Assembly (NCBI GenBank): GCA_902766765.1
Contig: CACXER010000022.1
Coordinates: 1 to 34,014 of the forward strand
Source of the DNA: an uncultured Elusimicrobium sp.
GTDB taxonomy: Bacteria; Elusimicrobiota; Elusimicrobia; Elusimicrobiales; Elusimicrobiaceae
DNA length: 34,014 nt
Direction of reading: 5' to 3'
Shown here: positions 18,860 to 21,446 of the stretch, piece after piece
How positions within the stretch are numbered: position 1 is the stretch's first letter
Layout of the letters: each line of letters begins with the position of its first letter
The notes under the pieces: generated by a model
What the model saw: only the letters and a program-made list of their open reading frames with translations
Told to the model about the DNA's origin: nothing
The model's database searches: none
Translations under genes and position numbers: made by a program

Positions 18860-19825
18860 ATGAAGAAAATTCTTTTACTGCTTAGTTTGCTTGCGTGTGT
18901 TTGTAACTCCTGGGCACAGGAGGCCGACTCGCGCATTTTTACCCATCCGGGCCGGGAAACTTTTGTATATTTCCCTTCGCAAGAATTAGGTCCTACCAAT
19001 ACCGTTACTTTTTTCTTACCTGAAAAATCAGTACCGCTTACACAAAGTTATCCGGTCATTGTTGTGTTGGGGCTAGTGCCGAAACAAGCTCCGGAAATAG
19101 CGCAATTTCAGCAAGAGCATCGGGCGATTGTAGTGGGTATCAATTTTGAAGAAAAAGATTATGCCACACGGGCCACACAAATTGAACGGTTTTTAATGCG
19201 CGAATTGTTACCGTATGTGGACACGAATTATTTGACGAAAACCGGACCCGAAAACCGTATTTTGGCCGTGCAAGGGAAAAGTGCGGCACGCATTGCGTTG
19301 CACGTTACCCAAAACCCGAATTTGTTTGGAGGGGTGGCGCTATTTTCACCCGGGGATGTGTGGAACGATGTTGACGTCCCCAATGTGCGTACGCTGGTGG
19401 TGGGTACGCAACCGGAATTAGCCCTGGCCCAAGAGACATTGGAACAATATGGCAAAACGTACGGACCGGATTTTGCCTTACGTTACAATCGGGCAAACGA
19501 ATTATGGTTTCGCGGGATAGATGCCTCGTATTTGTGGGCGGATAAAGCACAAACGCAAGTGAAATATGCGCGGGCAGATGTGTCTTTAAATAAGGTCTCA
19601 CTTGCTCAGCCGCAAGATGTATTTTTACGGATCTGGGTGGTATTAGCGAATAATTCACTTTTCCATTATGTTCCCTCCCAATTGCGCATGAGTCCGCCGT
19701 ATTTGACTTGGGATCCTTTGCGCGGGGCATTACAAGCCGTTTCCGGGGCTGTTCCCGGAACAGTACGTGTGCGTAATGTTGTGGATAAACCGGCGTTTGC
19801 GGTGAAAGTTCGCTTGAAAAAATAA
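18860..19825 (+). CDS. Secreted alpha/beta-hydrolase (esterase D-like) protein, probably degenerate
   Basis: A 321-residue protein with a signal peptide (about 1-19, ending NSWAQ). The middle looks like a putative esterase/enterochelin esterase domain: SYPVIVVLGLVPKQ, RAIVVGINFEEKDYATRATQIERFLMRELLPYVDTNY, then RILAVQGKSAARIALHV and LFGGVALFSPGDVWND. In active relatives the nucleophile sits in G-x-S-x-G at this place, as in xGxSMGG; here it reads G-K-S-A-A, so the elbow is altered. The last 100 residues contain beta-rich sequence. It may be a non-catalytic member or have changed specificity. It stands alone, upstream of the DnaA-box region. Confidence 0.7.
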   Translation: MKKILLLLSLLACVCNSWAQEADSRIFTHPGRETFVYFPSQELGPTNTVTFFLPEKSVPLTQSYPVIVVLGLVPKQAPEIAQFQQEHRAIVVGINFEEKDYATRATQIERFLMRELLPYVDTNYLTKTGPENRILAVQGKSAARIALHVTQNPNLFGGVALFSPGDVWNDVDVPNVRTLVVGTQPELALAQETLEQYGKTYGPDFALRYNRANELWFRGIDASYLWADKAQTQVKYARADVSLNKVSLAQPQDVFLRIWVVLANNSLFHYVPSQLRMSPPYLTWDPLRGALQAVSGAVPGTVRVRNVVDKPAFAVKVRLKK

Positions 19826-19980
19826 GCAGAAAGGCATTTTAGTGGCTTTTTAGGCAAAAAAAGAGCGACTTGTCAACAGTTTTTTCAAAAGTGTGAAAAA
19901 ATAGGGGTAATTTTTAGTGATTGGGAATCCTCGTCGATAAAAATAGCATTTTTCGTTATTTTTTAGCGGAAAATCAAAAG

Positions 19981-19989
19981 TTATCCACA
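19981..19989 (+). promoter_or_regulatory. DnaA box 1
   Basis: Perfect TTATCCACA, 20 bases start to start from box 2. Confidence 0.75.
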
Positions 19990-20000
19990 GAAAAATTGAG

Positions 20001-20009
20001 TTATCCACA
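20001..20009 (+). promoter_or_regulatory. DnaA box 2
   Basis: Perfect TTATCCACA in the same orientation as box 1, about two helical turns away. Confidence 0.75.
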
Positions 20010-20084
20010 CCCCAATATCCAAAAACCGTTTTTTCATTTTAAAGTGCTATCTCAAAACACGAAAAATGTAGAGTAAAACGGGGG

Positions 20085-20093
20085 TTATCCACA
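20085..20093 (+). promoter_or_regulatory. DnaA box 3
   Basis: Perfect TTATCCACA, 11 bases start to start from box 4, so both lie on the same face of the helix. Confidence 0.75.
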
Positions 20094-20095
20094 AG

Positions 20096-20104
20096 TTATC
20101 CACA
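20096..20104 (+). promoter_or_regulatory. DnaA box 4
   Basis: Perfect TTATCCACA, forming an inverted pair with box 5. Confidence 0.75.
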
Positions 20105-20107
20105 GTA

Positions 20108-20116
20108 TGTGGATAA
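20108..20116 (-). promoter_or_regulatory. DnaA box 5
   Basis: TGTGGATAA on the plus strand, a perfect box on the minus strand, 3 bases from box 4. Confidence 0.75.
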
Positions 20117-20157
20117 CTGGGGACAAATAGATTTTTAAGTTAGTAGGTATATTCTTT

Positions 20158-20166
20158 TGCTATAAT
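20158..20166 (+). promoter_or_regulatory. Extended -10 promoter of the OmpA-like lipoprotein gene
   Basis: A TGC-TATAAT extended -10 (hexamer 20161-20166) gives a leader of about 13 bases carrying AGGAGG. It lies directly beside the DnaA-box region, so DnaA could influence it. Confidence 0.65.
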
Positions 20167-20185
20167 GGGAACAGGAGGATTTATC

Positions 20186-20716
20186 ATGAAAACAAAACTT
20201 TTTTTACTTTTAGGTGTTGCCTTGATGTTGTCAGCGTGTGCTTCCGGTCAAACGGAAGAGGATGAACTGACCCGTCCGAAAAAAACTGACCCGGCCATTC
20301 AGGAACAGCAAATCCGCAATGAACATCTCTCGGCCCAGACGGCTAAACAAATGAGTAAGAGCCGAAAAATCCCTTCCATTACGTACGAATTTGATTCTAT
20401 CCGCCCGCCGGAAGAATCGTATCCGCTTTTGGATAAAATCGTAACGGTGTTACAAGATGACCCTACCTTACATTTAGTGGTAGAAGGTCACGCCGATATT
20501 GTGGGGTCGGATGAATATAACTATTGGCTCGCCGGCGCGCGTGCCGCGGCGATGAAATCGTATTTAGTTAGCCGCGGTATCAATGCCGAACGCATCCGCA
20601 TTCACTCGTACGGCAAGGACCGCCCGATTACGTTAGATACTTCGTCCGAAGGAAGAAAGGCCAACCGCCGCGTGGAATTTAAACTCACTACGCGCACTTG
20701 GCAAGCCATTTATTAG
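20186..20716 (+). CDS. Pal-like OmpA-domain lipoprotein
   Basis: The start at 20186 (176 residues) is fixed by AGGAGG 7 bases upstream; an in-frame ATG at 20165 overlaps the promoter. The lipoprotein signal ends MLSAC (Cys18). A charged linker is followed by a C-terminal OmpA/Pal peptidoglycan-binding domain: ITYEFDSIRP near 62, VVEGHADIVGSDEYN near 99, LAGARAAAMKSYLVSRGI near 117, RIRIHSYGKDRP near 139 and RKANRRVEF near 160. The domain binds diaminopimelate-type peptidoglycan and tethers the outer membrane. No Tol genes are nearby, so calling it true Pal would go beyond the sequence. Confidence 0.9.
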   Translation: MKTKLFLLLGVALMLSACASGQTEEDELTRPKKTDPAIQEQQIRNEHLSAQTAKQMSKSRKIPSITYEFDSIRPPEESYPLLDKIVTVLQDDPTLHLVVEGHADIVGSDEYNYWLAGARAAAMKSYLVSRGINAERIRIHSYGKDRPITLDTSSEGRKANRRVEFKLTTRTWQAIY

Positions 20717-20736: not shown

Positions 20737-20772
20737 ATAGCGCGCCTGAATTTCGGGTGCGCTATATTTTTG
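20737..20772 (+). terminator. Terminator after the OmpA-like lipoprotein gene
   Basis: A 14-bp stem with two G-T wobbles (20737-20750 with 20752-20765) is followed by a T-rich tract. The actual loop must open one or two of the innermost pairs. Confidence 0.7.
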
Positions 20773-20800: not shown

Positions 20801-20833
20801 TTGACTTTGTGTTTTTTTTTTTTATTCTATAAA
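20801..20833 (+). promoter_or_regulatory. Promoter of pilin 3 containing a T12 tract
   Basis: TTGACT (20801-20806) and TATAAA (20828-20833) are separated by 21 bases that include an uninterrupted run of 12 Ts (20812-20823). The spacing is longer than the optimal 17, and the homopolymer could change length by slippage. Confidence 0.5.
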
Positions 20834-20865
20834 TAGGAAAAATCTAGCAAAAAAAGAGGGTTGTT

Positions 20866-21405
20866 ATGAAAAATGAAATGTGGTGCAAATTAGGCGGGTT
20901 TACACTGATAGAATTATTAGTAGTCGTCCTTATTATCGGTATATTGGCGGCGGTGGCTCTGCCGCAGTATGAAAAAGCGGTGTGGAAGTCACGCTATTCA
21001 CAATTAGTGACGGTGGCTAGTTCTCTTGCTCAAGCCGCGGAAGTATATTACTTGGCTAACGGACAAAATCCGACGGACATGGAAGAATTATCTGTGGAGA
21101 TGAATTGTGAGAGATCTCTGGGCGGGCGTTGGAAATGTGGCGACTTTTATTGTGATCTAAGGGCCAATAAAACTATAACCTGTATGAACGAGGAGTTTTT
21201 GAAAAACGGGTATGGAATAAGTATAAATTTTGATAGCTCTGTTGCAGGACAACGGTATTGTATAGCTATGGCCGGGGAAGGAAATGATAAATATAATCAA
21301 TTTTGTAAAACTCAAACACACCAAGCCAGTCATGCGTTTGCGTATGGTATTTTAGATGGAAGCGGAACCTTGTCATACAAATCTACTAATTGGTATGCTT
21401 ATTGA
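20866..21405 (+). CDS. Type IV pilin-like protein 3
   Basis: A 179-residue prepilin-like protein. The leader is MKNEMWCKLGG followed by FTLIELLVVVLIIGILAAVALPQYEKAVWKSR, with Glu5. It is the closest of the five in this window to the classic PilE/PulG consensus. The C-terminal domain has several Cys (MNCERS, KCGDFYCDL, TCMNEE, RYCIAM, FCKTQ), enough for more than one disulfide. AGAGGG precedes the ATG. Single-gene unit with its own promoter and terminator. Role within a pilus or secretion system unknown. Confidence 0.93.
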   Translation: MKNEMWCKLGGFTLIELLVVVLIIGILAAVALPQYEKAVWKSRYSQLVTVASSLAQAAEVYYLANGQNPTDMEELSVEMNCERSLGGRWKCGDFYCDLRANKTITCMNEEFLKNGYGISINFDSSVAGQRYCIAMAGEGNDKYNQFCKTQTHQASHAFAYGILDGSGTLSYKSTNWYAY

Positions 21406-21414
21406 TCCGGTAAT

Positions 21415-21446
21415 AAAACCCCCGCTGTGCAAGCGGGGGCGTTTTT
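21415..21446. terminator. Bidirectional terminator between pilin 3 and the DUF167 gene
   Basis: A perfect 8-bp GC stem (21419-21426 with 21432-21439) with loop GTGCA is followed by CGTTTTT on the plus strand and by TTTTATTA on the minus strand. Confidence 0.85.

Follow-up and report, generated by a model that had tools for sequence, protein, structure and literature searches.

A T12 tract in an Elusimicrobium pilin promoter as the probable slippable spacer of a family-wide promoter module

The T12 homopolymer that precedes a type IV pilin-like gene in the window, the 34,014-nucleotide stretch of uncultured Elusimicrobium DNA analysed here, belongs to a promoter module that recurs in front of some 90 pilin genes of the same genome (G000; 1.36 Mb, 102 contigs). 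The architecture of this module, in which a -35-like hexamer is followed by a pure T or A tract with the -10 directly after it, is established, and we consider it probable that the T12 run is its slippable spacer and that slippage makes a large set of pilins vary in phase or level.

Upstream of the promoter lies an OmpA-family gene (20165-20716, OmpA domain PF00691), and on the forward strand, to which all further features of the locus belong, its intrinsic-terminator-like stem-loop of 13 pairs with a T-rich tail (20737..20765) is followed by the -35-like hexamer TTGACT (20801..20806), which is conserved across the pilin promoter family, by a TTGTG that leads from the -35 to the tract (20807..20811) and carries two bases more than the three-nucleotide family norm TTG, and by the T12 run (20812..20823), which sequence and family comparison lead us to propose as the slippage tract. 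The candidate -10 elements are TTTATT at a spacer of 14, TATTCT at the family's spacing of 16 (20823..20828) and TATAAA at a spacer of 21 (20828..20833), and further downstream are found AGAGG as a possible ribosome-binding site (20855..20859), the pilin-like gene of 179 amino acids (20866..21405) and another intrinsic-terminator-like stem-loop (21419..21439). Since there is a terminator-like stem on each side, the pilin gene looks like a single-gene unit. The first-pass annotation had named this TTGACT, this TATAAA and the 21 nucleotides between them, all of which match exactly on re-reading, and had called the T12 run the longest homopolymer of the window; it is indeed the only A/T run of at least 9, the next being A8 and T8, and with no second such run the remaining three pilin-like genes of the window are without a tract. 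Calling the downstream reading frame a pilin is likewise borne out by matches above cut-off to both PF07963 (28.9 bits, cut-off 21.2) and TIGR02532, which identify a prepilin cleavage/methylation motif at its N-terminus, and PilE-type chains furthermore match residues 12-77; its scores for the GspG, ComGC and PilA equivalogs all fall under the curated cut-offs. The nearest named relative is RUG129, an uncultured Elusimicrobium MAG, whose orthologous pilin is 82% identical in amino acid sequence over the best segment. Elsewhere in the window, between 18860-19825 and the OmpA-like gene, there is an A/T-rich intergenic stretch (19830-20130) with repeated TTATCCACA words, which we take to resemble a cluster of DnaA boxes and which may be an origin.

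Under a first-order Markov chain 0.21 runs of at least 12 are expected per 34 kb, and the T12 run is by itself unremarkable. Its location in a promoter is however not due to chance, since all 92 A/T runs of at least 10 in G000 lie in, or resemble, pilin-family promoters. Of these tracts 87 were placed by script no more than 200 nt 5' of a pilin start, one further lies at 203 nt and one is found at a contig edge holding the pilin motif, so that 89/92 closely precede type IV pilin genes; the remaining three are truncated by a contig end and retain the same promoter, one with the -35 side only. With all 92 checked, no A/T run of at least 10 was found outside such promoters, and the link between module and pilins is in this census near-exclusive. 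Counting from the pilins, 129 of the 132 places with a [GA]FTLIEL motif in G000 were examined (C51:13134, C69:9924 and C74:21528 were left out), and by sequence pattern 86 of the 129 starts have a -35-like hexamer with a pure tract of at least 10, 22 have a shorter run and 21 have no such promoter. The 86 tract promoters, 40 with T and 46 with A, have tracts of 10-15 nt with a mode of 11 and a modal spacer of 16, and a simple repeat between -35 and -10, by which homopolymer-spacer contingency loci are recognised, is accordingly found at 86/129 pilin starts. The first-pass annotation was right to place the T12 tract in the promoter of one pilin, but the feature is not unique to that gene. A DNA search with the window region moreover gave 43 matches within G000, several of which start not with the gene but already with its promoter (window 20800). 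Contigs C48, C52, C76, C80 and C99 end inside or beside tracts, and the repeated promoters therefore fragment the assembly, the pilin counts probably being underestimates.

Some features of these loci may be mentioned in passing. Divergent pilins at L103 and L130 share an intergenic region, which at L130 holds two tracts about 150 nt apart, one per gene. Dispersed palindromic repeat elements lie between promoter and pilin at L112, L129, L144, L019, L026, L032, L037 and L197, and some copies appear to be read in frame in the leader before the FTLIEL motif, e.g. as RHAELDSASHL or GEILKRVQDD; in-frame palindromic elements of other bacteria resemble these repeats. Four matches to the T2SSE family, candidate assembly ATPases for the tract-bearing pilins, score over cut-off in G000.

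The T class of G000 reads TTGACTTTG-T11-GC-TAGAAT or TTTAAT and the A class, its mirror, TTGACAAACC-A11-C-AATAAT, with the -10 starting one to two bases after the tract in both. The use of both strand senses is as expected if it is slippability that would be kept and not a strand-specific motif. The modal spacing of 16 is found in 24/40 T-class and 22/46 A-class promoters. The flanks differ in the relative G004 (TTGACATCG-T11-GCTACATT and TTGACAAATC-A11-CGATAAT) and the spacing is again 16, the tract being exactly 11 in 35 of the 42 tract-bearing promoters examined. Where the flanks are 5 nt the modal tract is 11 (T 41/54; A 39/60), and where they are 4 nt, as in the G066-G070 group (NN-T-GA), it is 12 (77/101) and the spacer once more 16. 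All of these counts are not independent, since promoters are alike within a species. On this comparison it is total spacing, not tract length, that is conserved, and the fact that a spacing of 16 is kept across differing flanks argues for a promoter that works and is spacing-sensitive, and whose total spacing would be under selection. Mutational equilibrium alone can furthermore be dismissed as the cause of the modal length, since the mode is 11 or 12 according to the length of the flanks; within G000, where the flanks hardly vary, tract length and flank length are not correlated. Full-length A-class spacers with an interrupted run have a spacing of 17 in 5/6 cases versus 8/44 of those with a pure run (post hoc; Fisher p = 0.003), L121 having been left out of the interrupted set as a pattern-match artefact with a true tract of A11. 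In tract-free sequence the sigma-70 spacings show a small peak at the same value (9 versus 4 in a reversed control), by which 17 is weakly indicated as the housekeeping optimum of the lineage, and a spacing of 17 may be the stable strong state after loss of slippage, with 16 poised one base off. Where the T or A run of a copy is short the spacing is mostly 10-13, which would suit a sigma-70 promoter poorly.

In the window copy the spacing is not the canonical one and the sequence 3' of the tract is atypical. The first-pass annotation took TATAAA as its -10 and proposed that a loss of about four Ts would restore a spacing of 17, and both claims are doubtful, since the 85 other tract promoters of G000 put the -10 directly after the tract at a modal spacer of 16, a geometry that makes one-base steps the relevant ones. 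TATAAA at a spacer of 21 was hence discarded as the default -10, but for the window copy itself the -10 is, as read from its letters, still ambiguous, as is its on/off state. Among the 144 kb of G004 that were compared, the pilin that appears to be its orthologue, with strict orthology uncertain, has a canonical promoter of the form TTGACATCG-T11-GATACCAT, the tract of which lies 119 nt 5' of the start codon chosen by script, with an in-frame ATG nearer.

Such tracts are present in 64/66 congeneric genomes, at 0 to 205 per genome. When one tract was taken from each of 30 genomes a pilin was found to follow in 26, and in two of the other four the same promoter is directly followed by masked bases (N); in the stretches taken from relatives tracts precede pilins in 44/47 (G004), 70/71 (G066-G068) and 46/48 (G069-G070) cases. 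Many tracts are also found in some genomes of another genus of the family (g5), and in this sister genus G088 and G090 have the same module upstream of pilins. In the sister-genus genomes G081 and G091, the module precedes a secreted-looking Cys-rich family at 14/16 tracts, the other two being within 205 nt of a sequence end. The Cys-rich proteins are small, with secretion signal peptides judged by eye, and no Pfam family was found over cut-off for them, with eight tested; they show a motif like ESCSSVG..QYKYTA.GCSYIT..RTCC..G.WS.WD and are encoded at L299, L302, L306, L311, L314, L315, L318, L319, L322, L323, L326 and L327. Their presence behind the module in both genomes rules out a pilin-only regulatory element, and this re-use before an unrelated family of putative surface proteins favours a general switch.

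Change of tract length between relatives was followed in two close-species pairs, G066/G067 and G069/G070, from which 13 long orthologous alignments were kept; paralogous, short and low-identity alignments, e.g. L202/L231 at 73% and L339/L332 near 1053 at 75%, were left out. The tract differs in length in 7/13 alignments, and among control runs in the same alignments gaps are found in 5/98 of 6-7 nt and 0/3 of 8-9 nt. Six of the seven differences involve a gap in the tract, in one case a gap plus a substitution, and the seventh is by substitution alone. The cleanest case is a pair with 99.3% identity over 2276 bp and tracts of 12 versus 13, and in another pair 100/100 bases are identical on each side of tracts of 12 versus 10, which differ by a gap and a substitution. 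As judged from these alignments the tracts are unstable over species-level evolutionary time, which is not evidence of instability per generation or in culture. A MutS_V match of 261 bits in a long open frame suggests that G000 has mismatch repair, by which slippage could be damped. Some reciprocal-best pilins of G000 and G004 bear opposite tract classes, T in one and A in the other, and since the flanks are stereotyped within species this suggests promoter exchange or concerted evolution.

We propose that the module acts as a sigma-70-type promoter in which TTGAC is followed by a pure T10-16 or A10-14 tract with the -10 directly after, at a modal spacing of 16 nt. Slipped-strand mispairing in replication would add or remove single bases of the tract, and the spacing would thereby shift through about 15-18 nt or further. 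The changed spacing would alter binding of RNA polymerase gene by gene, such that each pilin could be raised, lowered or silenced independently, and the population would hold cells with different pilin subsets and levels. In other words, we infer that tract length sets transcription, that switching within populations is frequent, and that the benefit lies in varied surface fibres in the gut. Of the phase variation that the first-pass annotation had suggested, the general idea is strengthened by a pure homopolymer filling the spacer, by orthologues that change in length and by a spacing that appears selected, while its details, TATAAA and the four Ts, fare poorly. The uniform lengths, exemplified by the 35/42 tracts of exactly 11 in G004, are however tighter than an unconstrained switch would predict and count against switching. 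A bolder form of the proposal, to which we would give even chances, is that a portable slippage-prone cassette with mirror T and A forms has spread within the Elusimicrobiaceae over entire surface multigene families (some 90 pilins in G000, the Cys-rich family in the sister genus, and in one relative 205 tracts), and that each cell expresses a heritable, stochastically drawn combination.

In a fixed promoter architecture the A/T tract would be kept for its rigidity or bend as a spacer, or to bind an A-tract-binding protein, the whole pilin family being co-regulated in this way, and small changes in length would be tolerated noise with no useful switching. This would account well for the sharp modal length and spacing of each clade and for flanks that are stereotyped species-wide, and it should also be mentioned that the T and A orientations yield the same duplex A-tract. 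We nonetheless find it a somewhat unlikely account, since purity is kept over ten or more bases though it invites slippage, since no such run is found elsewhere in G000, since orthologous lengths differ in 7/13 pairs, and since the module is re-used upstream of an unrelated secreted family. This re-use is likewise at odds with the notion that duplication or gene conversion simply carries the 5' region along as pilins multiply, the tract being an unselected passenger. Such copying is in good agreement with promoters that are stereotyped within species and different between them, and with the opposite tract classes of some G000/G004 reciprocal-best pilins, but a passenger would not hold a spacing of 16 across clades with different flanks, nor would the tract be uninterrupted in most copies, and we regard this explanation as highly improbable.

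For the window locus itself, a further reading is that it is a degenerate and probably silent member with a decayed promoter, which is compatible with slippage as the explanation for the family and does not exclude it. If TATAAA is taken, the spacer is indeed the longest of the 86, and the TTGTG leader with its extra TG is unusual. Nevertheless TATTCT at a spacer of 16 fits the family, the gene is intact and its apparent G004 orthologue has a canonical T11 promoter, which makes decay clearly unlikely.

If slippage does act on the family as proposed, slips in copying would raise or lower dozens of the surface fibres that G000 can make. The tracts also make it directly testable why such a large number of pilin genes is retained in these bacteria. 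The clade-dependent tract length at constant spacing furthermore amounts to a natural experiment on promoter spacing, and if the cassette reading is true, the repertoire would be among the largest of homopolymer promoters in any bacterium. Work on slippage promoters has usually concerned pathogens with a single such locus or a small number of them, and here slippage-type promoters are found in a gut commensal lineage, where a pilin family of at least 129 genes has them before most of its members and the module stands before a second putative surface family in other species. A full-text literature search for homopolymer or phase-variable pilin promoters in Elusimicrobi* gave no description of such promoters, judged by titles and abstract openings among the matches listed.

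In Bordetella fim and Neisseria porA and opc, the length of a spacer repeat sets the distance between -35 and -10 and thereby the expression of a fimbria or surface protein. These systems and the hif fimbriae of Haemophilus resemble the G000 pilins in having the repeat in the spacer and a fimbrial or surface product, but unlike G000 they comprise one or two loci per genome, mostly with G/C or TA repeats. The vlp lipoprotein family of Mycoplasma hyorhinis has a poly-A tract in the promoter of each gene and is likewise a multigene surface family with a homopolymer of its own between the promoter elements of every member, but there the genes are few and code for lipoproteins, whereas here there are about 90 pilins, both T and A orientations and another phylum. 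The vlhA genes of Mycoplasma gallisepticum likewise form a large surface family in which every gene is preceded by a slippable repeat, and the flanks of the repeat are conserved; the promoter repeat is GAA, located some 40 nt 5' of the start and associated with expression at 12 units, and a sigma-70 consensus is absent (PMC6258824). The repeat is a trinucleotide there and a mononucleotide run inside the -35/-10 spacer here. In Helicobacter pylori the adhesin gene sabA has a poly-T tract that changes in length by slippage and thereby tunes transcription, but this is a single gene, and its tract, ranging from T5 to T22, lies beside the -35 and acts on upstream alignment (PMC4081817). Haemophilus fimbriae are also mentioned in an article on the pilus G-tracts of Bifidobacterium breve, a gut commensal in which homopolymer slippage governs pilus expression and tract lengths are mixed in the population; the B. 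breve tracts however lie inside the coding region, the pili are of the sortase type and the loci are few (PMC9187656).
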